Source: Ruminococcus sp. FC2018
GTDB taxonomy: Bacteria > Bacillota > Clostridia > Oscillospirales > Ruminococcaceae
Direction of reading: 5' to 3'
Assembly (NCBI RefSeq): GCF_000621805.1
Contig: NZ_JHXH01000003.1
Span: 62,001 to 126,000 of the forward strand
Length of the DNA: 64,000 nucleotides
Shown here piece by piece: positions 605-49,510 of this stretch; position 1 is the first letter of the stretch, and every line of letters starts with the position of its first letter. Position numbers and translations under genes: made by a program. Below the pieces are notes generated by a model that ran no database searches, was not told where the DNA came from, and saw nothing but the letters and a program-made list of their open reading frames with translations.

Positions 605-1591
605 GTGGATCACGATATGAACGGCATTGCCTTTGGCACAAATGTTGCCGATGTTTTTGAAAAAGAGGACTGCCGCATAATGCGCATGACCTCTGAAACA
701 GGTGAAGGCGTAATGACGCTGTATCATGTTTTTGACGGCGTTATAATCATGCACAACAACTTTCATATGCAAAGCTGTGATTCTGACTTTGCAGCAAAGG
801 GCAATTTCCTTTGCATAGATCATTGCCGTGAGGGCAGGATCGAAACGAGCGTGAAGGACGATTCGGTCTGCTGTCTGTCATCGGGCGAACTGCGGATCGA
901 CGACGGCAGACACAACAACGGCACAGCAAGATTTCCTCTCAAGCACTATTACGGGCTGACTATCGCCTTTGACCTTGATACAGCCCAGCCTGCCCTTGAC
1001 AGCTACATCAGCGATTTCAAAGTCAGGCTCTCGGATATCTCGCAAAAATACTGCACCGACAAAGAGCCGTATGTCATATCCTCGTGTCCCGAAATAGCCC
1101 ATATCTTTTCCGAGCTTTACAATGTGCCCTCAAAGATAAGGCGTGATTATTTCCGCATCAAGATACTCGAATTGCTGCTGTTTCTCGATGCACTGGAAAT
1201 AGACAGGTACAAGACCGAAAAGCCGTATTTCTACAAAGGTCAGGTCGAAAAGATACACGCCATCTGCGAACTGATGACATCTGACCTGACAAGATCATAC
1301 ACCATAGAAGAGCTGTCGCACAGATTCGATATCGCACCGACCGCTTTGAAAAAGTGTTTCAGCAGCATTTACGGCAGCCCGATATATACCTATATGAAAA
1401 ACTGCCGCCTTGACCGTGCGGCATATCTGCTGAAAAACGAGCCGTCGATGAAGGTCGCTGATATTGCGGCAGCGGTCGGATACGAAAGCGCAGGCAAATT
1501 CTCGGCGGCTTTCCGCAAGAAAACAGGCAGCACGCCGCTCGATTACCGAAAGTATTCCGAACATAACAAGACCACTCCGAACCGGCAATAG
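605..1591 (+). CDS. AraC family transcriptional regulator
   Basis: A 328-residue protein with a C-terminal AraC-type double helix-turn-helix. The first helix-turn-helix is YTIEELSHRFDIAPTALKKCF, interrupted here only for family reading, and the second includes VADIAAAVGYES followed by KFSAAFRKKTGSTP, the family signature. The N-terminal 200 residues resemble no sensor domain that I can name and probably bind a ligand. The GTG at 605 is preferred because AAAGGG lies 7 bases upstream; a TTG at 587 in the same frame has no ribosome binding site. The regulator sits directly behind the permease gene on the same strand and may control that transporter, which is inference from position. A terminator follows immediately. 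Confidence 0.85.
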   Translation: MDHDMNGIAFGTNVADVFEKEDCRIMRMTSETGEGVMTLYHVFDGVIIMHNNFHMQSCDSDFAAKGNFLCIDHCREGRIETSVKDDSVCCLSSGELRIDDGRHNNGTARFPLKHYYGLTIAFDLDTAQPALDSYISDFKVRLSDISQKYCTDKEPYVISSCPEIAHIFSELYNVPSKIRRDYFRIKILELLLFLDALEIDRYKTEKPYFYKGQVEKIHAICELMTSDLTRSYTIEELSHRFDIAPTALKKCFSSIYGSPIYTYMKNCRLDRAAYLLKNEPSMKVADIAAAVGYESAGKFSAAFRKKTGSTPLDYRKYSEHNKTTPNRQ

Positions 1592-1594
1592 AAC

Positions 1595-1642
1595 AACGCC
1601 TTGCAAGCTGTGCAGTCGCTCTATTTGCAAGGCGTTTTGATT
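1595..1642 (+). terminator. Intrinsic terminator after the AraC gene
   Basis: A 12-bp perfect stem (AACGCCTTGCAA at 1595-1606 with TTGCAAGGCGTT at 1625-1636) is followed by TTGATTT. It starts four bases after the AraC stop codon. The T-run is short, so termination strength is uncertain. Confidence 0.7.
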
Positions 1643-1869
1643 TGTGAGGCAAACGGGCTTGAACAGCGTCCGAGGGCTTTTCGAAACCCGTCAAATAGCG
1701 CAAATACAGCGGTTTTGCAAAGTTTCCCGATTGCCTGCCTGTTGTGATCTCTGCTGAATTTTACCCGATTTGAAAACCCGATAAGCGTCAAATAAACGTC
1801 AGGTTCTGAAATCGGTAGCAGCAATAACATTGCTCCCCGTTATATCCAAGTGTTAAACCTCAACCGAGA

Positions 1870-2034
1870 ATTTTAAGTTTTAATGCTAAAATTTAAAGTT
1901 TCGGGTTTGAATTTTAAGTTTTAAAGTCGAAATTTAAAGTTTCAAGCGCATATTTTAAGTTTTAGAGTCGATATTCTAAGTTTTTAAAGTAAAATTTAAG
2001 GTTCCGAGGGTACGTTTTAAGTTTTAAACCCCGA
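1870..2034. repeat. A/T-rich tandem repeat, about 20-21 bp unit in a 41-bp double unit
   Basis: Eight diverged units begin at 1870, 1891, 1911, 1932, 1952, 1973, 1994 and 2014. Odd units begin ATTTTAAGTTTTAA and most even units begin ATTTAAAGTTT, which gives a roughly 41-bp higher-order period seen four times. The last unit runs into the 3' end of the broken phosphoesterase gene. The 230 bases between the terminator and this array (1643-1869) show nothing that I can assign. Confidence 0.85.
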
Positions 2035-2722
2035 ACGCAGCAATATCCTCAAACAGAATACTGACCTTGTCGATCTTCTTATTGGTGTGATAATGTCCGC
2101 AGTACCACTTCTTGTATTCTACGTTCTCCTCTATCTTGTCAAGCCACTGCTCCGTGGATTTATCAACTGTTGACTGGTCGATACAGGACAAGAACACCTC
2201 TGTCGGTTCGTACTTCAGCGGCGTGGTGTGGCTGAGGATAACATCGATCTTATTGTCCCTTTCCGCAAGAGTCTTTTCAACACGAGCCTTTATCTCGTCG
2301 CTCGGCTGTTCGTCTGCCCACCAGCCCCAGCCGTTCTCAATGCGGTACTCTTTGTCAACGCTGTATGCGCCGCCGATAGCGATCGCACTGATGCCGTCAA
2401 GGTCGTACACCTCGCCGTCCTTTGCAAACAGGATATTGGGGAACTCGTTCTCACGATACACCGTGCCGCCCTACCACTTCACCTCTTTATATGTGTCGAT
2501 GTTCTGCGGCCGCATCTCATGGTTGCCGTGAATACAGAAGAGTATTATCGGCAGAAAGTAAAGCATAGCTTTCAGCTTCTGGTCTCTCTTTCCGCCATAG
2601 TAGTTGATGCCTGCGTCGCCGAGGATAATAAGAATGTCGTCCTGTGTTGTTTCAAACCTGCGGCAGAACTCATGCACCCGCCTGAAATCGCCGTGCGTGT
2701 CGCCTGTAATGTAGATGCTTTC
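2024..2722 (-). pseudogene. Metallophosphoesterase pseudogene
   Basis: Read on the minus strand, the frame carries all the calcineurin-like phosphoesterase motifs in order: GDTHGDF, LGDAGINYYGG, HGNHE, SHTTP and CGHYHTNKK. Two lesions break it. The start codon is missing: the frame can be followed upstream of GDTHGDF to an in-frame stop without passing a suitable start. There is also an in-frame TAG at 2471-2473 between TYKEVKW and GGTVYREN, a place where the match to the family continues on both sides. No bases need be added or removed to join the two parts, so the second lesion is a nonsense change. Full-length relatives are small cytoplasmic phosphoesterases of unknown substrate. The broken 5' end lies exactly where the oppositely oriented TIR-like fragment begins. 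Confidence 0.75.
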
Positions 2723-3409
2723 ATGGAAAAATGTGTGAATGATGATTCTATCACAAATGTATTAATGCTACTTGATCCACTATATGCACAAAAAGCAGAC
2801 AATCATAGTGGAGGTGTAGGGACTGAAACACAGATTATTTCAGCCAGAGTTTATAGTGAGGTTTCACAAGATAGATTTATTCCTATAATAATGAAACGTG
2901 ATGAGAACGGCAACATTTGTAAACCAACTTATCTACAAAGCAGATTACATTTTGATTTAACTGATTCAGATAAATATGACCAAGAGTATTCAAGACTTGT
3001 AAAAAAACTATATGGGGTAGAAGTTTATGAAAAACCTACGCTGGGCAAAAGGCCCGACTGGGTTGACAAACCAATTAGCATTTCGCACAAAAGTTTCGTA
3101 TCTTTTGAATCACTAAAGAAACCCATTCCAGATAAAACTAAACAAAACGAGTTAAAAAAACACCTTAATAATATACGCCTGTATGATCAAAATGAAACTA
3201 AGTATGACGAATCCGGAAATATTATTACGGGGATAGAGTTTGCCACAGTCGATTCGTTCTCTATAGGAGATTACAAACAATTCTTATCTCAAATCAAGCC
3301 AGGTCAAAAACTAAGAATTACAAAGGATAATATACCAGAAAAGATGTGGTGGTGTTCCTACTACCATGGTAAAGAAATCAAAAGAGGCGAGATAAAGTGG
3401 AGAGATTAG
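2723..3409 (+). pseudogene. 5'-truncated TIR/SEFIR-type protein gene
   Basis: From the ATG at 2723 the frame encodes 228 residues beginning MEKCVNDDSITNVLML. It then has YAQKADNHSGGVGTETQIIS, RFIPIIMKRDE, LQSRLHFDLTDSDKY and LGKRPDW. This order, with GGVGxE after a DxxYxxKAD segment, matches the second half of bacterial SEFIR/TIR domains, but the first half with the F(I/V)SYS strand is absent. About 110 residues of unassigned C-terminal sequence follow, ending MWWCSYYHG...IKWRD. No convincing ribosome binding site precedes the ATG, and upstream sequence belongs to the phosphoesterase remnant, so I read this as a gene that lost its 5' end. The AT-rich codon use differs from neighbouring genes and suggests transfer. 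Such proteins are often NAD-consuming or signalling components of defence systems. A short functional product cannot be excluded. Confidence 0.55.
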
Positions 3410-3603
3410 TATTTATACTTTATTGAGTATCCAAAAGAATTCTCCCGCCCAAACTTTTCCCGACCATATGTTTCGTCAAAACGACGGATGTCTCACAGCG
3501 TTTAGAATGTGACAATGTGACAGATAATCAACACGGTGTCGTTTTTCAATGTTCGGTTTTATTGTTAAAGCGCTGAAATTTTGTGACATAGGTCATTTTG
3601 GTA

Positions 3604-3632
3604 TTGACATCGGTCACAGAATCGGTTATACT
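3604..3632 (+). promoter_or_regulatory. Consensus sigma-A promoter for a noncoding RNA
   Basis: TTGACA at 3604-3609 and TATACT at 3627-3632 are separated by exactly 17 bases. A start near 3640 is expected. The first long reading frame on this strand begins 1000 bases further on, past a strong terminator, so this promoter drives a noncoding transcript. Confidence 0.8.
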
Positions 3633-3639
3633 TAATCAC

Positions 3640-4042
3640 AGATACAACAGGAATCTTAACAAAACGAGCAAGCGGAGCAGCGGGTAGGTATCGCCAGGCT
3701 GGCTACCAAGCGGGGGCGGCATCCGAAAGGGTGTTGATTCACAAAGCAACGCATAGGTGTTTTATCTGTCAACGTGTGAAGTATACACTGACGAATAACA
3801 CAGCTGCATTTATGTGACGAAGCAGCTTGCCGTCAAATCGAGTATACGGAGACCGGTCAATTTGACTGAGTACTACTGTGACCGCAAAATGTTTTACTTC
3901 ACCAATGGACAAAAATGTGTCCGGTTGAACCAAGGGGTTGTTATACCCTGATGACAGTAAGACAACTTAACTCCGCTACTTGAAAGAATTGAATACTGAT
4001 ATCAGATCCTTCTTCCGAAGTTTTCGGAGGAAGGATTTTTTT
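3640..4042 (+). ncRNA. Structured noncoding RNA of about 400 nt, unknown family
   Basis: A consensus promoter upstream and a strong terminator at the end delimit a transcript with no reading frame of note. Several helices can be seen: a nested hairpin at 3687-3707 (GGTA, GCCA / TGGC, TACC), an 8-bp stem at 3717-3724 / 3729-3736 capped by a GAAA tetraloop, AGCTGC / GCAGCT at 3802-3807 / 3822-3827, and GTCAAAT / ATTTGAC at 3832-3838 / 3860-3866. I looked for the landmarks of RNase P RNA, tmRNA, SRP RNA and group II domain 5 and found none. It lies within or at the edge of the mobilizable element, so a role in element maintenance or replication control is possible. Nothing in the sequence proves a function. 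Confidence 0.65.
4006..4042 (+). terminator. Strong intrinsic terminator of the noncoding RNA
   Basis: A 13-bp stem (4006-4018 with 4024-4036, one G-T pair) with a five-base loop is followed by seven T residues. It is the strongest terminator in the first 10 kb. Confidence 0.9.
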
Positions 4043-4450
4043 GTTTGCAATAAACGATCTACATATATCGTCAAAGGAGTGAGTCCAATGTAAAATGAAA
4101 ACCACAAGCCAACAACCATAGACAGATCAAAGGAGGAATGTGCAAAAAACAAAAACTGTTGTGCTTTTCACTAAATGAAAGTACGGTTTACTGTGCAAGC
4201 CAACAAAATTTATTACAGATCTCAAAAATAAGGTTATCAAAACCCCAACATCTCTCCCTTATACAAGTAGGAAGAAAGATCTCAGCATCTTGAAAATTGA
4301 ATCCGCACACACGAAGGATACCCCACGGGGAAGTACAGCCATGATGAGCCTGGAGGACTCGGAGCGTACCAAGTCGGGACAATACGCCGAAAGAAATCGG
4401 CAGGAACTATAGTGGAGTGCGACAAAAGCAGCTACCCTGCTCTCAATTTC
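4043..4450 (+). other. Noncoding leader between the RNA and the iterons
   Basis: No long gene is present. AAAGGAG at 4073-4079 precedes an ATG followed at once by TAA (4088-4093). AGGAGG at 4131-4136 precedes a short frame listed separately. A hairpin with GCCGA / TCGGC arms lies at 4386-4401. The region from about 4300 is rich in short complementary G/C blocks and may be structured RNA upstream of the DUF927 gene. Confidence 0.4.
4138..4293 (+). CDS. Possible small ORF of 51 codons
   Basis: An ATG at 4138 opens a frame of 51 residues beginning MCKKQKLLCFSLNES and ending VGRKISAS. AGGAGG lies only one base before this ATG, which is too close; the GTG at 4140 in another frame is three bases away and would give a 12-residue peptide, MQKTKTVVLFTK. 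Neither resembles a family that I know. Translation of either as a leader peptide is possible but unsupported. Confidence 0.15.
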   Translation: MCKKQKLLCFSLNESTVYCASQQNLLQISKIRLSKPQHLSLIQVGRKISAS

Positions 4451-4623
4451 GTCTTACACGCCTTACACTCATCGCAAACGGCGTAGTTTCGAGCTGAAAG
4501 CTGTAATGCGTGTGTAATGCGTGTAATACCTGTAATGCGAGCGTATGCTGTGTGTAATACGAGGAAAAATCCGCAAAGCCCTTTGGTTATTGACTCTGCG
4601 GCAGTTGTAATGCGTGTAATGCG
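4451..4623. repeat. 9-bp iteron-like repeats (TGTAATGCG)
   Basis: Direct copies of TGTAATGCG or one-or-two-base variants occur at 4502, 4513, 4522, 4531, 4553, 4606 and 4615. The groups at 4513-4539 and 4606-4623 are strictly tandem. Inverted relatives (CGCCTTACA and a neighbour) lie at 4452-4468. The array ends 23 bases before the DUF927 gene. Such arrays are binding sites for a replication initiator or for an autoregulator. Confidence 0.8.
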
Positions 4624-4646
4624 TAAAAAGAATAGGAGGAGATAGA

Positions 4647-6524
4647 ATGAATGAAACATTGAACGAAATCCAGATCGAACAAACCCTAAGCGAGATTGAC
4701 GACACCGTCTATGAGCAGCCCTATCTTGTAAAGGACGGCTGTCTTTACGAGGAGGTGAAGATCAAAAACAAGACCGAGTATGTCAAGCTCGCCGACTTCG
4801 TTCCCGTGCTCAAAGCAGAGGTCACCTACGATGACGGAACAGAAGAAAAAAAGAAGTTCCTCATATCCGCTGTTCACAAAAGCGGTGATGTTCTCACCGA
4901 GCAGCTGGTATCTGCTGACGATATGCAGACGATGAAATGGCTGCTGCAAAGGTGGGGGCAGCAGGGCGCTGCACAGCCAAGACAGAATGTGCATCAGAAG
5001 ATATGCCACGCTATAATGTCACCCAAAGAAAAACCAGTCCGTGAATCGATATACACACAGACAGGCTGGAAACTTATCGACGGAGAGTATGTGTTCCTGA
5101 TGCCGAATGAGAACAGCAAGTACACTGTTGAACTTCAAGGCAAGCTCAAACGGTACCGCTTTGTTTCAAAGTGTACGCCCGATGAGCCTGTGCTGCTTTG
5201 TGATATGCTCGACAACACTATTGCACCCGAGAGAGTTATGCTGCCTCTGACAGCGGTTACTTTCCTCTCCCCGCTCGGACACTTTCTCAAAAACGCTGGC
5301 TGTGAACCAAAGTTTGTTACTGCACTCATAGGCAAGACAGGCTCGAGAAAGTCAACACTCGCAGCACTGTTCCTGTCCTTCTTCGGAAGGTTCACGGCGA
5401 GCGACCTGCCGATGTCCTTCCACGACACCGCAAACAGCATACTTGCCAACAGCTATTATCTCAAAGATGTGCTGACCTGCATAGATGACTTTCACCCGTC
5501 AAGCAGCTATCAGGAAAAAGAAATGAACACTATCGCACAGAACATTTCAAGATACTACGGTGACCGCACAGGCAGAGGAAGGCTCAACTCAAAGATTGAG
5601 ATACAAGCCTCAAAGCCGCCGGCAGGCAACGCAGTCATCACTGCTGAGTTCGCACCGAGCATCTCTGTTTCGGGCAGTGCAAGATACTTTTGCCTTGAAC
5701 TCAACAGCGATGATGTTGACCTTAAAGAGCTGTCGGTGTACCAGCGGTGCGCAGAGCAGAACATACTCTCGGGAATAATGATGACATACCTTGACTGGCT
5801 CAAGGAGAAATATCTGAAAGACGCAGACAGCTTTGAAACGAAACTCTCGGAGATGTTCCTGGAATTCAGGAAAGACTATCTTGTCAGTCTGACTGAGAAA
5901 CAGATAGCATTCCACAGCAGAGTTCCGGATATGCTTTCGCATCTGCGGATAGGACTTGTGATGCTGCTTGAGTTCCTGCTCGATACAGAGTTCATAGGCA
6001 GCGATGATCAGAAGAGGTATCTTGACAACCTTGATGAGATACTCATTGAGAATGTTCAGAGCAGCGCCGAGCTTATCCTTGAGGAAGATCCTGTGACAAA
6101 GTTCTGCGAAAAGCTCACCAGTCTACTCGACAGCGGCAGGTGCTATGTTGAAACAAGAGGCTCTGACTACTCAATAAGACAGAAGAACTGCATAGGACTT
6201 CAGGACGACAGATACTACTATCTGTTCATGGACAGTGCGCACTCTGAGGTCAGACAGCTGTGCAGCAATCAGGGTGAGCAGTTCACGATAAGCAAGAAAG
6301 AGCTGCTCAAACAGATGAGGAAAGACGGTCTGATAGTTTCAAAGACCAACCGCAACACTGTCTCGATAAGAGATAGCGGCGGGGTCATCAATGTGACTAT
6401 GCTCGACAAGGAGAAGATAGCCCAGCGACTGTCGCGCGATTTGTGCCCGCCCTCCACCTCGGTGGAGAGTTTACCCGAGCCGCAGACACAGAACGCCCCA
6501 CAGGGCAACGTGGCGCAAGTGTGA
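4647..6524 (+). CDS. DUF927-family ATPase, probable element replication helicase
   Basis: A 625-residue cytoplasmic protein. The P-loop GKTGSRKST is at residues 229-237 and a Walker B-like LTCIDDFHP lies near residue 280. A winged-helix-like C-terminal part (SKKELLKQMRKDGLIVSKTNRNTVSIRD, read in pieces) ends the protein. This arrangement is that of the DUF927 family, found on plasmids and integrative elements and thought to be a primase-associated or replicative helicase-like ATPase. AGGAGGA lies 7 bases upstream of the ATG. The TGTAATGCG array directly upstream suggests that origin and initiator are paired here, or that the gene is autoregulated. No separate primase or Rep gene is visible in the element, so this protein is the best candidate for its replication function, which is inference. 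Confidence 0.75.
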   Translation: MNETLNEIQIEQTLSEIDDTVYEQPYLVKDGCLYEEVKIKNKTEYVKLADFVPVLKAEVTYDDGTEEKKKFLISAVHKSGDVLTEQLVSADDMQTMKWLLQRWGQQGAAQPRQNVHQKICHAIMSPKEKPVRESIYTQTGWKLIDGEYVFLMPNENSKYTVELQGKLKRYRFVSKCTPDEPVLLCDMLDNTIAPERVMLPLTAVTFLSPLGHFLKNAGCEPKFVTALIGKTGSRKSTLAALFLSFFGRFTASDLPMSFHDTANSILANSYYLKDVLTCIDDFHPSSSYQEKEMNTIAQNISRYYGDRTGRGRLNSKIEIQASKPPAGNAVITAEFAPSISVSGSARYFCLELNSDDVDLKELSVYQRCAEQNILSGIMMTYLDWLKEKYLKDADSFETKLSEMFLEFRKDYLVSLTEKQIAFHSRVPDMLSHLRIGLVMLLEFLLDTEFIGSDDQKRYLDNLDEILIENVQSSAELILEEDPVTKFCEKLTSLLDSGRCYVETRGSDYSIRQKNCIGLQDDRYYYLFMDSAHSEVRQLCSNQGEQFTISKKELLKQMRKDGLIVSKTNRNTVSIRDSGGVINVTMLDKEKIAQRLSRDLCPPSTSVESLPEPQTQNAPQGNVAQV

Positions 6525-6887
6525 GCGAATGGCAGAGTAAGGAACTCTCGCCGCAGAGTTTACTATCTGTATAGTAACTCCAAAATTGCAAAAAAAGACA
6601 AACGCCCGAGAATGAGTGCTTTGCGGCACAGAGGTGCTGAATTAAACTGTTCCAAGTATCAGTCGGCAGGTCAAGCCACACAGTATTTTTCTCTCTTCTG
6701 CCAATGATAGCGAAAGAAGAAAAGGTCAAATTGAGGGATGCAAACGGCAGTCCGAAAACCGCAGGGATTCGGACACGCCAGCATCGCAGGCGGCAGTCCA
6801 CAACCCAGCAAGCTGGCTCGAACTTGCCTCCCGCATTGCCGGCTCGGGGAGGACCCCGGACCCCCTCATAGCGAAAAGAAAGGAGTG
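6525..6887. other. Intergenic region with possible oriT
   Basis: No gene is visible. There is an inverted repeat at 6556-6580 (GAGTTTACTAT / ATAGTAACTC, one-base bulge), and CCTCCC / GGGAGG arms at 6827-6832 and 6847-6852. A run of GACCCC-type sequence precedes the MobC gene at 6853-6868. Transfer origins of this kind of element usually lie just upstream of mobC, so this is the most likely place. I cannot identify the nick site. Confidence 0.35.
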
Positions 6888-7205
6888 ATGAAATTGAGAA
6901 CAAGAGATGTAACTATCACAGTCAGATGTACCGAGGACGAGCGGAGAAAGATCAGAGAGCGAGCTGCAAGCCGAGGGCTGAAGCTGTCCGATTTCGTTCT
7001 GCGGTCGGCGCTTGGAAAGAAGATAATTGTGCTTGACGGCTTCCACGAGTTGAGCAAGCAGCTCAAAGCTGTGGGCAACAATCTCAATCAGCTGACCAGG
7101 CTTTGCAACGAGGGCAGAGTGAAAGTTGCCGAGCTGAAAGAGTGCAGAGGTCTGCTTATGGACATCTACGGTCGGCTGGGCGAAATGCTAAAGGAGGTGA
7201 AGTGA
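6888..7205 (+). CDS. MobC-like relaxosome accessory protein
   Basis: A 105-residue basic protein. The N-terminal TRDVTITVRCTEDERRKI followed by ASRGLKLSDFVLRSALG is the ribbon-helix-helix region of MobC proteins, and the C-terminal half (AVGNNLNQLTRLCNEG) is the conserved MobC NLNQ segment. It binds oriT and helps the relaxase nick. AAGGAG lies two bases before the ATG; a TTG at 6894 in the same frame is better spaced (8 bases) and may be the real start. The TGA stop overlaps the ATG of the relaxase gene by one base, so the two are translationally coupled. Confidence 0.85.
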   Translation: MKLRTRDVTITVRCTEDERRKIRERAASRGLKLSDFVLRSALGKKIIVLDGFHELSKQLKAVGNNLNQLTRLCNEGRVKVAELKECRGLLMDIYGRLGEMLKEVK

Positions 7206-8527
7206 TGCCGATAATCCACTTTGCAAACAGCAAGAATCAGACAACGGGCGGCTTGAAAAAGCTGCTCGGGTATGTCAGCAGAGAGAAGAAAACCAAGCTG
7301 GAGGACAGGCGGTTTGTGTCGGGTGTGAACTGTTCAACCGAGAATGCCTACAACGAAATGATGCTAACCAAGCAGATGCACAAAAAGACAGGCGGCAGAC
7401 TGTACTATCATCTGGTGCAGAGTTTCCCGAAAGGCTATGACATCAAGCCAGAGCTTGCACACAAAATTGCAGTTGAACTTGCAGAGAAAGCCCTCAAAAA
7501 CTTTGAATGTGTCGTGGCAACTCACATAGACCGAGAGCATATCCACAGCCACATAGTGTTCAACTCGGTCAGCTTTCAGAACGGACGAAAGTTCCATTCC
7601 AACCTTAATGATGTCAAACAGCTAATGAAACTGTCCGATGAGATCTGTGAAAAGTATGGTGTTCACACATTGCAAGAGCCTACCTTTAGTAAGGATAGTC
7701 ATAAAGAGATACTCGGCGACAAGGAGTACCGCAGTGCTGTGCGTGGCGAGAGCTTCAAGTTCGCTTTGATGAACGCAATCACAGACTGTATGAAACAAGC
7801 AAAGTCCCAAAAGCAGTTCATAGCTTTGATGAAACGCAAAGGTTACCATGTGCGGTGGGAGCAGCAGCGAAAGTACATCACCTACACCACGCCCAAAGGA
7901 AAGAAATGCAGGTGCAATAAACTGCACGACAGAAGATTTACAAAGGAGATGATGGAATATGAATTCGAGATCAGAGATAGAATCTTTAATGGAGAAGAAC
8001 AAGGAGAGCTTTCGGGAGGCTTCGGAAACCGCTCCTATGGTGGTAGTTCAGGAGCAGAACTGGACGGCGGTGTTGAAAATCCTCAGTTCGATTTGTCAGT
8101 CGCAGGACGAGGTCAGAGAAGAATTAAAAGAGCTGCCGACCGGCAAACAGATGACGAGGTACGAGCAGAACCAGTCGATACTGCTTGGCAGATACCAGCA
8201 GGAGAGCGAACAGAACCGTCAGCAGATACATCAGGAGATGAAAGAAATGAGCAGCGACCTGCTGAAACAGGTTGGGAGCATGAGCGCAGAATACTCATCA
8301 AAGCTGAAAGAGCAAGAGAGCTGGCGGCAGAAAGTAAGCTCAAAGCTGTGCAAAATTCTGATAGCTTCGCAATTGATACAATTGGGCTTGTTGACGGGAT
8401 TACTGCTCTGGCTACGTTGATAGAGGACAGCGATGAGGACGAGGACAAGCACTACTCCGCAGTTGACCGCAAGCGGCTCAAAGAGGAATGGGAAAAGAAA
8501 GAGTCGCTGGGAATGCATATGGGGTAA
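7205..8527 (+). CDS. MobA/VirD2-type relaxase
   Basis: A 440-residue relaxase. The N-terminal segment MPIIHFANSKNQ...LLGYVSR and the three-histidine metal site in THIDREHIHSHIVFNSV identify the MobA/VirD2 family (MOBP group in the usual scheme). It nicks oriT, stays bound to the 5' end and leads the strand into the recipient through a borrowed type IV pore. The C-terminal third is low in hydrophobic residues and polar; it ends with ETGWEHERR and AVDRKRLKEEWEKKESLG, which recur in relatives, so this frame is genuinely coding to the end. A second frame inside it (7959-8420) also appears to be a gene. Confidence 0.9.
   Translation: MPIIHFANSKNQTTGGLKKLLGYVSREKKTKLEDRRFVSGVNCSTENAYNEMMLTKQMHKKTGGRLYYHLVQSFPKGYDIKPELAHKIAVELAEKALKNFECVVATHIDREHIHSHIVFNSVSFQNGRKFHSNLNDVKQLMKLSDEICEKYGVHTLQEPTFSKDSHKEILGDKEYRSAVRGESFKFALMNAITDCMKQAKSQKQFIALMKRKGYHVRWEQQRKYITYTTPKGKKCRCNKLHDRRFTKEMMEYEFEIRDRIFNGEEQGELSGGFGNRSYGGSSGAELDGGVENPQFDLSVAGRGQRRIKRAADRQTDDEVRAEPVDTAWQIPAGERTEPSADTSGDERNEQRPAETGWEHERRILIKAERARELAAESKLKAVQNSDSFAIDTIGLVDGITALATLIEDSDEDEDKHYSAVDRKRLKEEWEKKESLGMHMG
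7959..8420 (+). CDS. Membrane-anchored coiled-coil protein nested in the relaxase gene
   Basis: This 153-residue frame lies wholly inside the relaxase gene in another reading frame. Its ATG has AAGGAG (7943-7948) ten bases upstream. The product has a long Gln/Glu/Lys-rich, probably coiled-coil region (about residues 45-125) and ends in one hydrophobic helix, ILIASQLIQLGLLTGLLLWLR, quoted only as a boundary marker at residues 133-153. A soluble coiled coil plus a C-terminal anchor is unlikely to arise by chance in a shifted frame. The arrangement is like mobB within mobA of plasmid RSF1010, where MobB is a membrane-associated mobilization factor. Homology to MobB is not claimed; the similarity is in arrangement and topology. 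Confidence 0.6.
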   Translation: MNSRSEIESLMEKNKESFREASETAPMVVVQEQNWTAVLKILSSICQSQDEVREELKELPTGKQMTRYEQNQSILLGRYQQESEQNRQQIHQEMKEMSSDLLKQVGSMSAEYSSKLKEQESWRQKVSSKLCKILIASQLIQLGLLTGLLLWLR

Positions 8528-8870
8528 CGAAACGTGACTCGATACCGAAACGGTACCGAGTTCCCGAAACGGGCTTTCGGTATCAGTGGAGCCCCAAAAC
8601 AGGACTACATCTCTCACCATGACGTGACAGAACATCCCGTCATCATGGGGTGGCAAACCACCACCTCGTCCAAGGGAGTGGACAAAACGGACACCCCATT
8701 GACGGTGAACGAATTGTTCACCGTATGGATATGGGGTACGCATATGGTATCCCACAGCGACCCGACCTGAAATAAGGTGGGTAAAAATCTAAATCGAAAG
8801 GACAGATTAAATTGAACAATGCAATCAGAAATCGGAACAACATCAAATCAGGAAGGAGAACGATAATAGA
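8528..8870. other. Intergenic region rich in inverted repeats
   Basis: No convincing gene. A perfect 9-bp inverted repeat (ACGGTGAAC, loop GAATT, GTTCACCGT) lies at 8702-8724. Blocks of CCGAAA(C)GG and TTTCGG at 8548-8583 can also pair. These could be terminators, operators or recombinase sites between the mobilization and integration modules. Confidence 0.45.
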
Positions 8871-9071
8871 ATGGCTGAAAACAAAACAGAAACGAAAATC
8901 ACTATGCTTACCATTAAGGAAGCTGCCGAGCTTTTTCAGGGACTTACAGAGTTCAGAGTCAGAGAGCTGTGCAGGACGGGTGCGCTGCCTTGCATAATGG
9001 CGGGCAAAAAGTATTTGATAAACAAAGATACATTGTACAAATTCCTCAGCGGAGGTATGGCGGTTAGGTAG
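8871..9071 (+). CDS. Excisionase-family DNA-binding protein
   Basis: A 66-residue protein with a MerR/excisionase-type winged helix: LTIKEAAELF, then EFRVRELCRTGALPCIMAGKKY, then LINKDTLYKFL. Proteins of this size beside a tyrosine integrase act as recombination directionality factors, bending DNA so that the integrase excises the element. AAGGAG lies upstream at 8851-8857. The integrase gene follows 101 bases later, consistent with an Xis-Int pair. Confidence 0.85.
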   Translation: MAENKTETKITMLTIKEAAELFQGLTEFRVRELCRTGALPCIMAGKKYLINKDTLYKFLSGGMAVR

Positions 9072-9101
9072 AAAAGTATGTTGTAGAAATGAAATGTATG
9101 G

Positions 9102-9147
9102 CTGCCTGATAGCTATGCCCGTAAGTATGTGGTAAGCTGTCAGGTAG
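9102..9147. promoter_or_regulatory. Imperfect 13-bp inverted repeat before the integrase gene
   Basis: CTGCCTGATAGCT at 9102-9114 and AGCTGTCAGGTAG at 9135-9147 match as inverted copies at 11 of 13 positions. They could be an attenuator hairpin or a binding site for Xis or Int. Confidence 0.45.
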
Positions 9148-9172
9148 TATACAGAAAGGAAAGGTGAAATAT

Positions 9173-10384
9173 ATGGCGTATATTGAAAAGAGAAAAAATC
9201 GCAAGGGTGAGTTCGCTGGATACCGAATTCGTGCGTACAGCGGATACGATGTCAATGGCAAGCAGATGGTGCAGTACAAAAGCTGGACGCCGCCAAAGGA
9301 TATGTCTCCTCGTCAGGCAGAGAAAGAAGTGCAACGGCTTGCAGTTCTGTTCGATGAGGAATGTTCACACGGACAGGTCACGGCGGCGGTAAAGCTACAA
9401 AAACTTTGTGAGCAATGGTTCAGTGAGTACGCTGAACTTAACCACCGCAGCACGACATTGCAGAGAGAACACCTCATAGCATCAAGGGTCTATCCTGCAC
9501 TCGGTCATCTTCGTATCGACAAAATATCAGCTCGTGACATTCAGAAATTCATAAACTCACTTGCACAACCGGGTGCAAACAAAAGGACAGGTCAGCCACT
9601 GTCTCAAAAGACAATGCGGCACCACCTGTCGTTCATATCTTCAATATTCGAGTATGCGATACGACTCGATATGGTGACAACAAATCCTTGTTCACGAGTC
9701 ACAATACCAAAGATAGATGCCAACGGTAATGTCTACAAAAAGCCCGAGAAACACATCTACACCAAAGAGGAAACGAGGGAGTTCATGCAGATCCTCGCTG
9801 AAGCTCCGATGAAATACAAGGTGTTCTTCACGCTCGCTATCTACACAGGCTGCCGCAGAGGTGAACTGCTCGGTGTTGAGTGGAAGAACATAGATCTTGA
9901 AAAAGCAACGCTGATGATAGACCACACATCAAACTACACAGCAGGCAAGGGAATTTACACAGATATCACCAAGACGGATAAAAGCACAAGGCTTGTAGAC
10001 CTGCCGCCGACAGTGGTCGAGCTGCTCAAAGCATACAAGCACGATCAGGACTACTACAAGGCAGAGCTGGGCAGCAAGTGGCACGAGCACGACAGGCTGT
10101 TCACCAAATGGGACGGCGAGCCGATGCATCCAAACACTCCGTACTCATGGCTGATGCGGGAATGTGAACGCAGAGGATTTCCGTTCTACGGAGTGCATAC
10201 ATTCAGGCATCTGTTCGTATCGCTTGAGATCGAGGCAGGCATTGACCCGACCACCATAGCAGCTATGGTAGGTCACAGCACCCCACAGACCACGCTGACC
10301 ACTTACAGCCACTTCTTTGCCGATAGCAAACGCAGGGCAAGCAACGTCATAGCGGACATTATTGAGGGTAAAACGGCAGGGTAA
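9173..10384 (+). CDS. Tyrosine-type site-specific integrase
   Basis: A 403-residue integrase. The N-terminal part (MAYIEKRKNRKGEFAGYRIR) is an arm-binding domain, followed by a SAM-like core-binding domain (about residues 60-160) and the catalytic domain. Catalytic residues are visible: Arg in YTGCRRGELLG, the HTFRH box, GHS, and the nucleophilic Tyr in TTYSHF. ATG 9173 is chosen because GAAAGGAAAGG lies 10 bases upstream; a GTG at 9164 is too close to it. The enzyme should catalyse integration and, with the neighbouring excisionase, excision. Its gene abuts tRNA-Leu, the probable attachment site. Confidence 0.93.
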   Translation: MAYIEKRKNRKGEFAGYRIRAYSGYDVNGKQMVQYKSWTPPKDMSPRQAEKEVQRLAVLFDEECSHGQVTAAVKLQKLCEQWFSEYAELNHRSTTLQREHLIASRVYPALGHLRIDKISARDIQKFINSLAQPGANKRTGQPLSQKTMRHHLSFISSIFEYAIRLDMVTTNPCSRVTIPKIDANGNVYKKPEKHIYTKEETREFMQILAEAPMKYKVFFTLAIYTGCRRGELLGVEWKNIDLEKATLMIDHTSNYTAGKGIYTDITKTDKSTRLVDLPPTVVELLKAYKHDQDYYKAELGSKWHEHDRLFTKWDGEPMHPNTPYSWLMRECERRGFPFYGVHTFRHLFVSLEIEAGIDPTTIAAMVGHSTPQTTLTTYSHFFADSKRRASNVIADIIEGKTAG

Positions 10385-10544: not shown

Positions 10545-10550
10545 CATTTA

Positions 10551-10632
10551 TGCGGCAAACGGGACTTGAACCCGTACGTCGTTAAACACACGCCCCTCAA
10601 ACGTGCCTGTCTGCCAGTTCCAGCACTGCCGC
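10551..10632 (-). tRNA. tRNA-Leu (anticodon GAG)
   Basis: On the minus strand the acceptor arm GCGGCAG pairs with the 3' TTGCCGC, and the D region has GGAACTGGCAGAC. The anticodon loop is TTGAGGG (anticodon GAG), followed by a long variable arm typical of leucine tRNA and a T arm with GGGTTCAAGTCCC. The 3' CCA is not encoded. The 3' end faces the integrase gene, so this is the probable attachment site. The gene is intact on the right side of the element. Confidence 0.93.
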
Positions 10633-10662
10633 ATATATTCCGCTGATGTAGTCAGCTTAATT

Positions 10663-14276: not shown

Positions 14277-14305
14277 TTGACAGCGTACTTTTTGTGTGCT
14301 ACAAT
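14277..14305 (+). promoter_or_regulatory. Consensus promoter of the RT-associated RNA
   Basis: TTGACA at 14277-14282 and TACAAT at 14300-14305 are separated by 17 bases. The start is expected near 14312, six bases before the first complementary repeat. Confidence 0.8.
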
Positions 14306-14311
14306 AAAGCG

Positions 14312-14460
14312 GTAAATAAGAAGAAGAGAAAGCAGCGTTTGCTGCGTCTGCGAAAGGTGAAGCGTGTTTCGTTTAAAAAGGCTTTGCAGACAGCCGTTGC
14401 ACGTTCAGCCCGGTACATTAAGCGATGCTTAATTGAAAGCATATTCTCTTCTTCTTTTTA
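14312..14460 (+). ncRNA. Retron-like noncoding RNA upstream of the reverse transcriptase
   Basis: The RNA is closed by 13-bp complementary ends: 14318-14330 (ending AGAAGAAGAGAA) pairs with 14444-14456 (starting TTCTCTTCTTCT). Inside are three helices. The first has 5-bp arms, GCAGC / GCTGC, at 14332-14345. The second is longer, GTCTGC / GCAGAC at 14346-14351 / 14386-14391, extended by AAAG / CTTT. The third has 7-bp arms, ATTAAGC / GCTTAAT, at 14417-14433. An AGC triplet follows the first closing strand directly, as at the branch point of retron RNAs. The closing strand runs into a T-rich tract, so the RNA may also terminate there. The reverse transcriptase starts 25 bases later. That the enzyme copies this RNA is inference. 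Confidence 0.6.
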
Positions 14461-14480
14461 TTTTTTAAGGAGGTGGCAGC

Positions 14481-15668
14481 GTGTCCTTGCTCGACAGTCT
14501 TTACGACCCGCAGACATGGGAGGAATACAAACAGTACAAGCTTTCCCACGGGCATATCTCTCCCCGCAGACAGCAGGAGCTGGAGGAGTTTATCAGCCGA
14601 AGGCTCTATCTTCCCACCGCAAAGGACCTTTGCTTTTCACCGCCTGAAAAAAAGACCATAAACAAAAGCGGCACACAGAAAAAGCGTGTGATATATATGT
14701 TCCCGCCCCAGCAGACCCAGGTGCTCAAGCTGCTCACTCACCTTTTGTATAAATATGACGGGGCATTTTGTAAAAGCTGCTATTCCTTCCGCAAGGGCAT
14801 CACCGCCCGGATGGCAATGGAAGACGTTATGGGGCTGAAAAACAAAGACAGTCTGTGGGTGCTGAAGCTGGATATCCACAACTACTTTAACTCCATGCCG
14901 TCAAAAAGGCTGGTAAAGGAGTTTGAGAGGGTCATAACCGACGACCCGCAGCTTTTGAGCTTCCTCACGGATCTTTTCACCGCAGATATATCCATGTGCG
15001 GCGGACAGGTCATCACCGAGGACCGAGGAGCGATGGCAGGCGTGCCTGTGTCGGCATTTTGCGCCAATCTTTATCTCACCGACCTGGACAGGCTTTTTGA
15101 AAGTATGGGCGTGCCATATTTCAGATATTCCGATGATATTCTTGTCTTTGCCCAAAGCCGCAGCCTTGCCATGCAATACTACCGGACGATAAAGCAGCAC
15201 GTTGAAAGCAAGGGACTGACCCTTAACAGCAAGAAGTTCTCCCTCACCCCTCCCGGGGAACCGTGGGAATTTCTCGGCTTTAAATATCACAATGGTGAGA
15301 TAGACCTTTCGCAGGCATCAGTGGACAAAATGAAAGCCAAGATAAAGCGCAAGGCTGCCGCCGTATACCGCCGCAAATGCCGGCGTGGCACAGCGGATGA
15401 CAAGGCGGCAAAAAACATGATAAAGATATTTGACCGCAAGTTCTTTGCCCCTGCGGACGAAAAAGATTTTACCTGGAGCCGCTGGTTCTTCCCTGTGCTC
15501 ACCACACACAAGGGGCTTGAGGAGATAGACAGGTATCTTGTGGAATATATCCGTTATATTTACACCGGGCGGCATTACAAAGGCAACTACAGGATAAGCT
15601 ACGGGCACCTGAAAGCCCTGGGGCTGCGCAGCCTTGTGAACGAATATTACAAGTACCGAAAGGGATAA
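14481..15668 (+). CDS. Reverse transcriptase, unassigned group
   Basis: A 395-residue RNA-directed DNA polymerase with the ordered RT blocks. These are RT1 (KKRVIYMFPPQQ, about residue 68), RT2 (CYSFRKGITA, about 100), RT3 with the first catalytic Asp in KLDIHNYFNSM (Asp131), RT4 (RGAMAGVPVSAFCANLYL), RT5 with YSDD (residues 216-219), RT6 (GLTLNSKKF) and RT7 (WEFLGFKY). It lacks the maturase X and endonuclease domains of group II intron proteins. The retron VTG motif and NAxxH box are not evident, so it may belong to the 'unknown group' or DRT-like enzymes. AAGGAGG lies 7 bases before the GTG start. A promoter and a retron-like RNA lie directly upstream, and a terminator directly follows, making a self-contained two-part unit. 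A defence role is possible by analogy with retrons and DRTs. Confidence 0.9.
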   Translation: MSLLDSLYDPQTWEEYKQYKLSHGHISPRRQQELEEFISRRLYLPTAKDLCFSPPEKKTINKSGTQKKRVIYMFPPQQTQVLKLLTHLLYKYDGAFCKSCYSFRKGITARMAMEDVMGLKNKDSLWVLKLDIHNYFNSMPSKRLVKEFERVITDDPQLLSFLTDLFTADISMCGGQVITEDRGAMAGVPVSAFCANLYLTDLDRLFESMGVPYFRYSDDILVFAQSRSLAMQYYRTIKQHVESKGLTLNSKKFSLTPPGEPWEFLGFKYHNGEIDLSQASVDKMKAKIKRKAAAVYRRKCRRGTADDKAAKNMIKIFDRKFFAPADEKDFTWSRWFFPVLTTHKGLEEIDRYLVEYIRYIYTGRHYKGNYRISYGHLKALGLRSLVNEYYKYRKG

Positions 15669-15716
15669 AAAGACCGAAAAGGGATGCCCGGCATCTTTCA
15701 ACTTTCGGTCTTTTTG
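15667..15716 (+). terminator. Terminator of the reverse transcriptase unit
   Basis: AAAAAGACCGAAA (15667-15679) pairs with TTTCGGTCTTTTT (15703-15715), overlapping the stop codon region and ending in five T residues. Confidence 0.85.
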
Positions 15717-15798: not shown

Positions 15799-16275
15799 AT
15801 GGATAAACAGCGTGTAGCACAGGCGTATGAACGTTACTCCGATACCGCAGTGCGTGCCGCATGGCATTACACAGGCGATATGCACAGCGCACAGGACTGT
15901 GCCGAAGAAGCTTTTTTGCGGCTGCTTTCTCAGGAGGATATGCCTGATGAGCGGATACTTCCCTGGCTTATACGTGTCACGGTGAACATAGCCAAAAACC
16001 TTTTGAAATCATCTCACAGAAAATGCACCGATCCCTTTGACGAGCAGGCTGTGGACGGGCAGACCGACGGGCTTGTGCTTGCACGCCGTGCAGCCGCAAG
16101 AGCGATGCTTTGTCTGCCGGAAAAGTACCGCATACCCCTTATGCTGCACCTTGGTGAAGGACGAACTATCGCAGACACCGCAAAAATCATCGGCAAAGGC
16201 ATGAACACCACTGCGTCCCTTATAAGAAGGGGAAAAAAGCTGCTTCAGAAAGCCTATGAAAAGGAGGAATTATGA
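15799..16275 (+). CDS. ECF-type RNA polymerase sigma factor
   Basis: A 158-residue sigma-70 family protein. Region 2 covers about residues 8-75, with DCAEEAFLRLLSQ and LPWLIRVTVNIAKNLLKS. Region 4 covers about 100-155, with LCLPEKYRIPLMLHLGEGRTIADTAK read as its start, and RRGKKLLQKA at the end. It recruits RNA polymerase to alternative promoters. AAGGAAGGAG precedes the ATG. A 13-bp palindrome (TGAACC-G-GGTTCA, 15769-15781) lies just before the ribosome binding site and may be an operator. The stop overlaps the start of the next gene, whose product has the layout of an anti-sigma factor. Confidence 0.88.
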   Translation: MDKQRVAQAYERYSDTAVRAAWHYTGDMHSAQDCAEEAFLRLLSQEDMPDERILPWLIRVTVNIAKNLLKSSHRKCTDPFDEQAVDGQTDGLVLARRAAARAMLCLPEKYRIPLMLHLGEGRTIADTAKIIGKGMNTTASLIRRGKKLLQKAYEKEEL

Positions 16276-17873
16276 TGAACAAACAAACAAGTGCAGAACA
16301 GATGTATAAAGAATATATCACAGACATCCACGCCGACAGCACAGCTTTGGAAAGCTTGCTTAACGGCGAAAGAAGCCCTGTAAACCCCGGTGCAAGGATA
16401 AAGCACCACTCCACAGGTAAAGTTGCTGCCGTGACCACTGCCGCAGCTGCTATCGCAATATGTGCAGGGATAGGTTTTTCGTCTTTCGGTTCAGATGACA
16501 CCCAAAGCTCGCCCTCTGCCGGCGCAGCTACCCCGAAGGTAACAACGGCTCAGCAGCCCGCCAGCATAACTCCCTCAGCTCAGGGTGACTTCAGGACAGA
16601 GGTCACCGATATTATCGGCGGCACCCACGGTATGTGCGCCACATTGAAGCTTACGGGACTTACCGAAAAGGGAAAGACGCTTATCAAAGAGCAGGGCGAC
16701 CAGCTCTCATCGGATCAGAGCTTTTTTGGCACAGGCATAGCAGCTATGTCCTTTTCCACTCCCGTTGCAAGCGGCGACAGCTGCACCATGCAGGTAAGCT
16801 TTGTGCCGCAGAAATTCACGGGATTTGAGAGCAACCTTGGAGTGGATATATTTTTAAGGTTCCCCTCCGATCCAAAGGGTGAGATAAACGATCCGGGAAG
16901 AAAAGTATCGTTTAACATTCCTCTCACACCCTGTGAACAGCGCTTCACAAGCGACAAGGGAGAAGAAATCTGGCTCACCGATCAATATATTGCATCGGGA
17001 CACAATCCTAACGATTCTCAGAAAAGGTATCTGTATACAATAAAATACAAGGACGGCACGGTCAAAGAACTCACCGATAGTGACAACATCAACGCCGCAG
17101 GAGCTTCAGACTATCTGAGTTATACGCTGAGCTATTTCAGAGTAAAGCTGAACACCGCAGACATTGAAAGCATCACCTATGATGGCATTGAGTTCAAGCC
17201 TGCAAAGCAGGGAAATGAGAAGTTCAAGACAGAGCTTGTCCAGACAAAAGCATCTGACCACGGAATGATCGCAACTGTCAAGCTTACTGCTTTGAACGAC
17301 GAGGCTAAAAAATATATGAATAAAGACCTTAGTGTTAGCTATCAGGCATCAAACGACGCATTGATGAACAGATTGATAGGATGCAACGTTGACATTGTGT
17401 CTGATAATACGCTGATAGCAAACGTGGGCTTTGCCGGTCATGATGAAAACGATAAGGTCGCAAACGGTGACACGGTGAGCGCTTTGTTCAGACTCCCGAT
17501 CACCGGTGCTGATGCACAGGGCACAAGTGAAAGTATGGAATCAGCGATGGCAGCAGAGGGAAGACATATAGAAATAACCATAAACAAAAACAAAAAAGAA
17601 AGAACCTTGCGTTCCAAAGACGGCAAGACCCTCTTCCTTTCCGATTTCCATTTGACAGCACATAATATCAGATCAACGATCTCTGTGAAAAACATAACCG
17701 TAAAATATGCAGACGGAACTACTCTGACAGATACTGATATCGGTATGCTCGGAGGCAGTATCGATAACCCAAATAACAAAGGAACAAGTGCAACAATATA
17801 CTTTGAAAAAGATATTGCCGCCGATAAAGTCGTATCCGTGACCTTTAACGGAACACAATACACACCGCAATGA
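16272..17873 (+). CDS. Probable membrane-bound anti-sigma factor with duplicated outer domain
   Basis: A 533-residue protein whose gene overlaps the sigma gene by four bases. The N-terminal 48 residues are cytoplasmic, then comes one hydrophobic Ala-rich helix (about residues 50-70), a Ser/Thr/Pro/Gln linker and a large outer region. That region is a tandem duplication: HGMCATLKLTGL in the first copy (about residue 120) matches HGMIATVKLTAL in the second (about 330). Both copies end in a segment with KYxDGT followed by IT(Y/F)(D/N)G. The N-terminus has no zinc-binding HxxxCxxC motif of the usual anti-sigma domain, so the sigma-binding mode is unclear. The role is inferred from gene order and topology. 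Confidence 0.7.
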   Translation: MMNKQTSAEQMYKEYITDIHADSTALESLLNGERSPVNPGARIKHHSTGKVAAVTTAAAAIAICAGIGFSSFGSDDTQSSPSAGAATPKVTTAQQPASITPSAQGDFRTEVTDIIGGTHGMCATLKLTGLTEKGKTLIKEQGDQLSSDQSFFGTGIAAMSFSTPVASGDSCTMQVSFVPQKFTGFESNLGVDIFLRFPSDPKGEINDPGRKVSFNIPLTPCEQRFTSDKGEEIWLTDQYIASGHNPNDSQKRYLYTIKYKDGTVKELTDSDNINAAGASDYLSYTLSYFRVKLNTADIESITYDGIEFKPAKQGNEKFKTELVQTKASDHGMIATVKLTALNDEAKKYMNKDLSVSYQASNDALMNRLIGCNVDIVSDNTLIANVGFAGHDENDKVANGDTVSALFRLPITGADAQGTSESMESAMAAEGRHIEITINKNKKERTLRSKDGKTLFLSDFHLTAHNIRSTISVKNITVKYADGTTLTDTDIGMLGGSIDNPNNKGTSATIYFEKDIAADKVVSVTFNGTQYTPQ

Positions 17874-22584: not shown

Positions 22585-22833
22585 AAAAACCGTCCTGCAT
22601 TTACACAGGACGGGGATAATATACAAAAACCCGTGGTACCACCTGAATTACCGCATTTTCTGCGGTCACTCTCACCGCTTAACGCACGGTAAACGTCTTC
22701 CCTACTTGCTAACGGGTTCAGGTCGCTGCTCAGAAGTGTTATTCACACAAGCTCTGATATGCGGTTTTCACTGTCCCGCACTCACTTTGAACGAAATCTC
22801 ATGCTACTTCTCTTCGTCATGGCATTTATCATG
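22585..22833 (-). promoter_or_regulatory. T-box riboswitch, probable Asn specifier
   Basis: On the minus strand the conserved T-box AGGTGGTACCACGGG (22644-22630) is followed by a G/C-rich terminator, CCGTCCTG...CAGGACGG, with a T-run (22612-22585). The 5' part has AGAGAAGTAGC and a stem I arm, GTGTGAATAACACTTCTGAGC, interrupted here as a marker of the specifier side. In that segment the triplet AAC (22740-22738) sits between GAAT and ACTTCTGAG, where the specifier is expected. Uncharged tRNA-Asn would then allow read-through into the transporter, asnS and asnA. Confidence 0.85.
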
Positions 22834-49257: not shown

Positions 49258-49510
49258 AATAAAATAAAAATCTCCGCCTCTATTACAGAGGCGAAGACAT
49301 AGTTTCTCCGTGTTACCACTCTGATTGCAGAAAATCCGTATTCTCTGCCGCTCAAACTCCATAACGGTGAGTTACCGTGCCCGCTTACTTTATTTCGGCA
49401 GACCGACTCGGGAATGATCCTGCATGGGTTTTCCTTACGGCGTTGCACCGACCCGCCGCTCTCTGAAAGGCACTGCCCTTACACCTTTTCCGTCAAAGTC
49501 TTTCAAATAT
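49258..49510 (-). promoter_or_regulatory. T-box riboswitch of ilvA-ridA, probable Ile specifier
   Basis: On the minus strand the conserved AGAGTGGTAACACGGAG (49322-49306) is followed by a terminator stem CGCCTCT/AGAGGCG and a T-rich tract (49293-49258). Stem I sequences GAGAGCGGCGGG and GGATCATTCCCGAGT are present upstream. By comparison with the leader at 22585-22833, the specifier triplet would be ATC (isoleucine). The T-box itself is firm; the specifier is tentative. Confidence 0.85.

Follow-up and report, generated by a model that had tools for sequence, protein, structure and literature searches.

A reverse transcriptase (RT) gene on the chromosome of Ruminococcus sp. FC2018, a rumen member of the Clostridia, is preceded by a promoter and a structured RNA with complementary ends, which raises the question of what kind of unit the RNA and the RT form and what the RNA does. 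To address this question, we analyzed a stretch of 64,000 nucleotides that contains the locus (hereafter, the window). An earlier note on this DNA had described the layout as that of a retron or DRT system. We found that the DRT half of this description holds, since the RT matches the UG26 family and groups with UG27, while the retron-like RNA half amounts to a likeness, since the RNA is RT-5. With moderate confidence, we propose that a trans-acting RT-5 RNA and a class 2 UG-type RT together would form an RNA-templated, protein-primed synthesizer of cDNA with an anti-phage effect.

Organization of the locus

The unit lies on the plus strand and comprises the following features:

14277–14305, + strand: sigma-70-type promoter with an extended −10 (TTGACA-17-TACAAT; 11 of 12 consensus positions)
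near 14312, + strand: predicted RNA start, placed from the promoter
14312–14462, + strand: RT-5 noncoding RNA, predicted extent from the start site to the U-tract (Rfam RF03026 over 14342–14446)
14467–14473, + strand: AAGGAGG ribosome-binding site of the RT gene
14481–15668, + strand: UG26 reverse transcriptase by family match, 395 aa, GTG start, YSDD at residues 216–219 (37-sequence alignment)
15667–15715, + strand: terminator-like inverted repeat (AAAAAGACCGAAA ... TTTCGGTCTTTTT) with a T-run, overlapping the RT stop codon

The ends of the RNA are predicted from the promoter, the closing helix, and the T-run. The promoter sits exactly where the earlier note had placed it. Taken alone, such a match is at chance level (four promoter-grade matches in 4 kb versus 4.6 expected), and by eye similar boxes were seen 5' of the RNA in L004, L007, L009, and L088, four relatives from the genus, and not in L005. 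The rest of the coding unit is also as previously described, with a GTG-started gene 25 bases past the end of the helix, a 395-residue product with the YSDD site, and a terminator made of an inverted repeat and a T-run.

The RT matches the UG26 family over its full length

When compared with PADLOC models, the RT scored 536.3 bits against RT_UG26 (PDLC03764) over residues 1–394 of 395, and among the best 25 of 89 matches the runners-up were RT_UG27 (116 bits), a general RT model (113), Drt9 (101), and RT_UG17 (99). Judged by this match, the RT is a full-length UG26 enzyme, a family reportedly named by Mestre et al. Its nearness to the UG27, DRT9, and UG17 models would place UG26 within class 2 of the UG/DRT enzymes. 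RVT_1 was the sole Pfam domain found. The RT is intact and under purifying selection, with a dN/dS of 0.13 between the window and L032 and of 0.08–0.24 in four other pairs from the genus (one further pair was saturated).

The earlier note had proposed a phylogeny of the RT as a check. In a quick tree of 68 rows, the 37 UG26 rows formed one group and 12 rows from viral contigs formed another; seven of the latter proved to be UG27 when scanned, and the other five are labeled by kinship. UG27 was the sister group of UG26 in this small tree, and retron-like, group II-like, and most other RTs from related genomes lay apart from UG26. One RT on a very long branch (L026) was placed on the UG26/UG27 side, and the tree carries a long-branch warning. 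An AlphaFold model of the RT (pLDDT of 80.9, six sequences) was closest in Foldseek to the GsI-IIC group II RT, followed by G2L4, other group II RTs, DRT9, and DRT2. As a separate observation, an alignment search identified 35 loci on viral contigs with UG26-related RTs (L154–L188), seven of which were scanned and are UG27; L154, L155, and L158 score closer to UG26 than the other scanned viral RTs.

The RNA is RT-5, with a conserved closing helix and pseudoknot

The RNA matches Rfam RT-5 with 62.4 bits against a gathering score of 45.7. This RNA was reportedly first described by Weinberg et al. in 2017. The elements of the fold are as follows:

14318–14330, + strand: closing helix P1, 5' strand, pairing with 14444–14456 (own versus swapped strands in 37 RNAs)
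14332–14345, + strand: hairpin P2 (14332–14336 with 14341–14345; 99.1% of cells paired, four columns counted)
14346–14352, + strand: pseudoknot, 5' strand, pairing with 14385–14391
14355–14359, + strand: helix P2a, 5' strand, pairing with 14407–14411 (three of five pairs form in the window)
14362–14404, + strand: arm made of P3 (14362–14370 with 14396–14404) and P4 (14380–14383 with 14392–14395)
14371–14379, + strand: 9-nt internal loop of the P3/P4 arm
14385–14391, + strand: pseudoknot, 3' strand, within the P4 loop
14417–14433, + strand: hairpin P5 (14417–14423 with 14427–14433; two-sided changes at seven of seven pairs, 81.4% of cells paired)
14434–14443, + strand: single strand between P5 and P1, candidate template by its position
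14444–14456, + strand: closing helix P1, 3' strand, followed by the T-run

The Rfam match stops at 14342–14446, so the closing helix falls outside it, and the structure line given by cmscan has no pseudoknot, which Rfam may record elsewhere. We aligned 37 RNAs with MAFFT, without structure, and omitted L101 as a near copy of L084. Since the register of P1 differs from species to species, we paired every 5' strand both with its own 3' strand and with those of all other RNAs. Own strands paired with a mean energy of −18.13 kcal/mol versus −10.65 kcal/mol for swapped strands (0 of 10,000 permutations were as good), and in 25 of the 37 RNAs the own 3' strand was the best partner. The 13-bp end pairing that had been noticed in the window is therefore not only exact but kept as a helix across the 37 RNAs by compensatory change, in a covariation check that the earlier note had suggested.

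Outside P1, 91.8% of cells pair, compared to 75.5% in shuffles and 32–42% in slid controls, and two-sided changes occur in 30 of 36 pairs versus 20.2 in shuffles, counts that are inflated by kinship of the sequences. The strongest of these helices is the pseudoknot, in which 99.6% of cells are paired and five of seven pairs show two-sided changes across the 37 RNAs, with strands such as GCCUGC/GCAGGC, GUCUGC/GCAGAC, and ACCUGC/GCAGGU. In 15 of the 37 RNAs, P2a lacks its last pair, and two of the nine P3 pairs are mismatched in the window. The window RNA folds better than its dinucleotide shuffles (z of −4.1; 1 of 200 shuffles did as well), and its minimum-energy fold forms the pseudoknot helix at the cost of P3 and P4. 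The three hairpins or arms previously seen within the closing helix are thus present, together with a pseudoknot that had been missed. Both the closing helix and the pseudoknot are backed by covariation and, as far as can be told, are new here.

UG26 is rare and keeps a chromosomal place near metG in the genus

Of 29 genomes from the genus, 9 hold UG26 (E < 1e-100) and 8 hold RT-5; the one that differs is G009, where the contig starts 551 bases ahead of the RT. At the level of the order, UG26 (E ≤ 1e-60) was found in 11 and RT-5 in 12 of 394 genomes; all 11 are among the 12, and in the twelfth (G145) the contig ends soon past the RNA. The class search yielded UG26 in 16 of 391 genomes, and the phylum search in 2 of 358, namely that of the window and another from its class. 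RT-5 is present as a single copy in the window's own genome.

An upstream metG on the opposite strand occurs in 8 of 10 loci of the genus, which are all those with contigs of sufficient reach; it is either adjacent to the RT or separated from it by up to four small or medium ORFs. Matches to the RT in phage and plasmid records were all below 60% identity, with 15 listed per search at 20–30%. Among six proteins encoded close to the RT in the window, none matched a PADLOC model at 1e-15 or better. Outside the genus, we compared 71 neighbor proteins, part of the 151 that lie within three genes, with partner genes left out; three to five matched PADLOC models at 1e-15 (two matches to mad3 and one to each of three PDC-S15 models).

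A constant chromosomal position within a subclade of the genus could indicate a host-domesticated RT–RNA unit with a role other than defense. The position beside metG is in keeping with this, as are the purifying selection, the scarcity of defense genes nearby, and the fact that the phage and plasmid records searched hold no relative above 60% identity. On the other hand, only 9 of the 29 genus genomes carry UG26, its scatter over the class is thin, and excerpts of the DRT10 and DRT9 sources (PMC12632851 and PMC12483538) report UG17 and UG28, which are its relatives, as experimentally shown defense systems. We therefore regard domestication as unlikely, while still giving it some weight. Given the sparse defense neighborhood, the case for defense rests on kinship, by which we infer, as the earlier note had, that the UG26/RT-5 unit may protect against phages.

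Several other features of the surroundings were observed. A mobilizable element at 4647–10384 encodes a relaxase (7103–8527), an HTH_17 protein and an integrase (9164–10384), and, by eye, an ATPase- or primase-like ORF and a MobC-like ORF, with tRNA-Leu at 10550–10633. We considered whether the RT is part of this element (4.6–10.4 kb) and ruled this out, since the integrase end beside tRNA-Leu falls about 4 kb short of the RT, which stays near metG in relatives. Just 5' of the ORF that starts at 4647, iteron-like 9-bp repeats that resemble TGTAATGCG (4513–4623) are perhaps the replication origin of the element. At 15799–17873, an ECF-type sigma factor gene is followed by one for a 533-aa protein without a family above the cut-off; orthologues of the sigma factor (at least 69% identity) were found in exactly those 9 of 29 genus genomes that hold UG26, and the gene is probably a marker of the subclade. 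Two T-box leaders lie on the minus strand, one at 49284–49505 and one at 22603–22829, the latter preceding ORFs that by eye resemble a transporter and an asparaginyl-tRNA synthetase. In L106 and L108, UG26 lies within or next to a repeated series of genes from one family encoding ~430–450 aa, one member of which weakly matched PADLOC PDC-M51A (2.1e-09).

RT-5 accompanies UG26 and probably acts in trans

We read 40 loci from 38 genomes (the window, L032–L036, and L083–L116) and found RT-5 in 38 of them; 37 exceeded the Rfam gathering score, and in L114 the RNA was recognized only by alignment. The two RTs for which RT-5 was not found are that of L033 (genome G009), where the contig begins 551 bases before the RT, and that of the distant L116, at its locus. 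RT-5 was above the gathering score in 0 of 17 UG27 viral loci, and our own RT-5 model, built without P1 and the pseudoknot, had no match at 35 RT loci on viral contigs.

We considered whether the RNA could instead be a cis-acting leader or attenuator, in which P1 and the T-run would form a terminator that controls expression of an RT working without the RNA. In most loci, the RNA does lie directly before the RT, and its 3' strand enters a T-run ahead of the ribosome-binding site, as expected for a leader. However, two loci separate them. In L103, the RNA is ~1.2 kb upstream of the RT with one opposite-strand gene in between, and in L105 it is ~7.3 kb upstream, with one same-strand and six opposite-strand ORFs in between; the RNA structure is intact in both. 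A second UG26 RT was not found by tblastn in either, and in L104, a near relative, the RNA directly precedes the RT. Together, these findings are the strongest evidence that RT-5 is not a mere leader and suggest that it probably acts in trans, and we consider the leader reading improbable. As far as can be told, such cases of an RNA separated from its RT are new here.

We find it very hard to maintain that the RNA is the msr-msd of a retron, from which the RT would make branched msDNA. The inverted repeat at the RNA ends and the AGC after the first of them, which the earlier note had likened to a retron branch point, are both present in the window. However, the triplet at this position is CGC in 20, AGC in 8, TGC in 8, and TGT in 1 of the 37 RNAs, and the GC is paired in P2, so there is no conserved branch site. 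Moreover, the best retron model among the matches listed reached 54.7 bits versus 536 for UG26, the RNA belongs to RT-5, and the protein has neither VTG nor NAxxH, motifs whose names we took from the earlier note and whose absence it had reported correctly. We rejected the retron reading on the unconserved AGC, the RT family, and the absent motifs. Weakest of all, and scarcely tenable, is descent from a selfish element such as a group II intron, which the top Foldseek match and a 116-bit match to TIGR04416 (the NCBIfam group II maturase model) might suggest but which we rejected because that score is far below the cut-off of 300, UG26 forms one group apart from the sampled group II-like RTs, the Rfam scan found no intron RNA in the window, and the RT is intact and under purifying selection. 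Neither of the conditions that the earlier note had named as refuting its reading occurred, as P1 is conserved and the RT does not group with the sampled group II-like RTs.

A third gene was not found in the window's lineage

In 21 of the 40 loci, a third gene, mostly of 150–200 aa, immediately precedes the RNA in the same orientation. It was identified with a profile made here, for which 17 of the 21 were seeds; the new finds were L090, L092, L098, and L115, the last of these a weak match (7e-07) without a PADLOC match. PADLOC labels the gene RTasCOG2852 (best match, 4e-59; 1.4e-54 for L090), with two of five tested lacking a match. In the order, RTasCOG2852 matches occurred in 7 of 295 genomes, and all seven carry RT-5. 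No third gene was detected next to the RT at the ten genus loci that we read, of which L033 and L100 extend too little upstream to be judged, and PADLOC found no RTasCOG2852 match in the window's own genome, nor in control genomes. The gene seems to have been lost in the genus. Its pattern is explained by six changes on a 36-row RT tree (L033 uncounted), which fits an old partner gene lost several times. A lineage that keeps the RNA and the RT without the third gene is, as far as can be told, new here. By its PADLOC name, the third gene is near COG2852, which we take to be Vsr-like nucleases. We saw no conserved D-ExK set by eye in the seed alignment, which makes nuclease activity of its product doubtful.

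Proposed mechanism and candidate template

We propose that one promoter would transcribe both the RNA and the RT, with the 3' end of the RNA probably set by the closing helix and the T-run, and with read-through reaching the RT gene. The RT would bind the pseudoknotted RNA and repeatedly copy a short unpaired stretch of it into DNA, most likely the single strand that separates P5 from the 3' side of P1, with synthesis primed on a tyrosine in the C-terminal tail of the RT (389, 390, or 392). The cDNA would build up, be checked by host nucleases, and harm or stop the phage-infected cell.

This model draws on DRT10 and DRT9, for which excerpts of the sources (PMC12632851 and PMC12483538) describe a stretch of the ncRNA that is copied again and again, with a residue of the C-terminal tail, tyrosine or serine, as the primer. 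In 36 of 37 UG26 RTs, a tyrosine lies at most nine residues from L385, and the tail of the RT at locus L109 has none; by analogy, priming from a tail tyrosine may be expected. The excerpts place the DRT10 template directly past SL5, at ~107–119 of 137 as reckoned from named mutants (PMC12632851), and the DRT9 template at U123–U126 (PMC12483538). The segment at 14434–14443 may occupy a similar place, as judged by comparing positions, without a structural alignment.

If templates of the A-B-A' type were used, the segment should contain a repeat, and such repeats look striking in single species (L103, L106, L107, and L115), but the comparison of own with swapped segments gave a weak result. Across 36 RNAs (L114, with a 29-nt segment, was dropped beforehand), the mean longest repeat was 3.11 for own versus 2.79 for swapped segments, a difference matched by 97 of 20,000 permutations; the corresponding counts were 681 of 20,000 when repeats of at least four were scored and 174 of 20,000 for 32 distinct pairs. 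With 25 hand-picked RNAs, 236 of 20,000 were as good using the first boundaries, and 936 to 8,937 of 20,000 using five other choices. A GUAC-GGUCUU-GUAC repeat after P3, found by eye, was also considered as a template and dropped because its middle pairs in P2a.

A telomerase-like variant of this mechanism would have a realigning template after P5 (AUU-GAAAGCAU-AUU) yield protein-linked tandem-repeat DNA, and would have the window's lineage turned to a housekeeping or stress role. The latter is proposed for a lineage that lacks the COG2852-type gene and has a fixed chromosomal site and few defense neighbors. In excerpts of the DRT10 preprint (PMC12632851), UG enzymes are placed near telomerase. 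We offer this variant as a speculation that is probably wrong.

Implications and comparison with known systems

The RT family, the RNA family, and the accessory gene are each already catalogued. Among the matches listed in the limited literature searched, none was a functional study of either UG26 or RT-5. With UG26 tied to RT-5, and with a pseudoknot, P1, evidence for action in trans, and a third gene missing from some lineages, a direct test of the unit becomes possible: which stretch is copied, which DNA is made, and whether the unit defends its host are all testable questions. The known UG enzymes differ widely in the DNA they produce, and the unit would add a further case.

The unit differs from group II intron RTs in that neither a maturase domain nor an intron RNA was found here, and from retrons in RT family, motifs, and the lack of a conserved AGC. 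DRT3 (preprint PMC13174585) has a pair of RTs, whereas the window's genome has one RVT_1 match. UG27 of gut and rumen phages is the sister RT group in the small tree, yet no RT-5-like RNA was detected around the RTs at the 35 viral-contig loci.

DRT9 (UG28) and DRT10 (UG17) likewise combine a UG-type RT with an upstream structured ncRNA that has a large central stem, and their C-terminal tails hold a tyrosine or serine, comparable to the tail tyrosine of 36 of 37 UG26 RTs. According to excerpts of the DRT9 source (PMC12483538), its priming peptide ends in QSLNYDYE; UG26 has RSLVNEYYKY near its end. On the other hand, the DRT9 and DRT10 RT models reach 101 and 99 bits versus 536 for UG26. A conserved U-run of the DRT9 type is not present in the P5–P1 segment of the 37 RNAs (other loops were viewed by eye only), and the A-B-A' template repeat of DRT10 is, in RT-5, not robust to the choice of set and boundaries. 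The third gene of UG26, where it occurs, is COG2852-like by its PADLOC label and not SLATT. Within the UG26 family itself, the window and the judgeable loci of its genus lack the RTasCOG2852-type gene seen in 21 of 40 loci but share with the family a match over the whole protein and an RNA that adjoins the RT in nearly all loci read.
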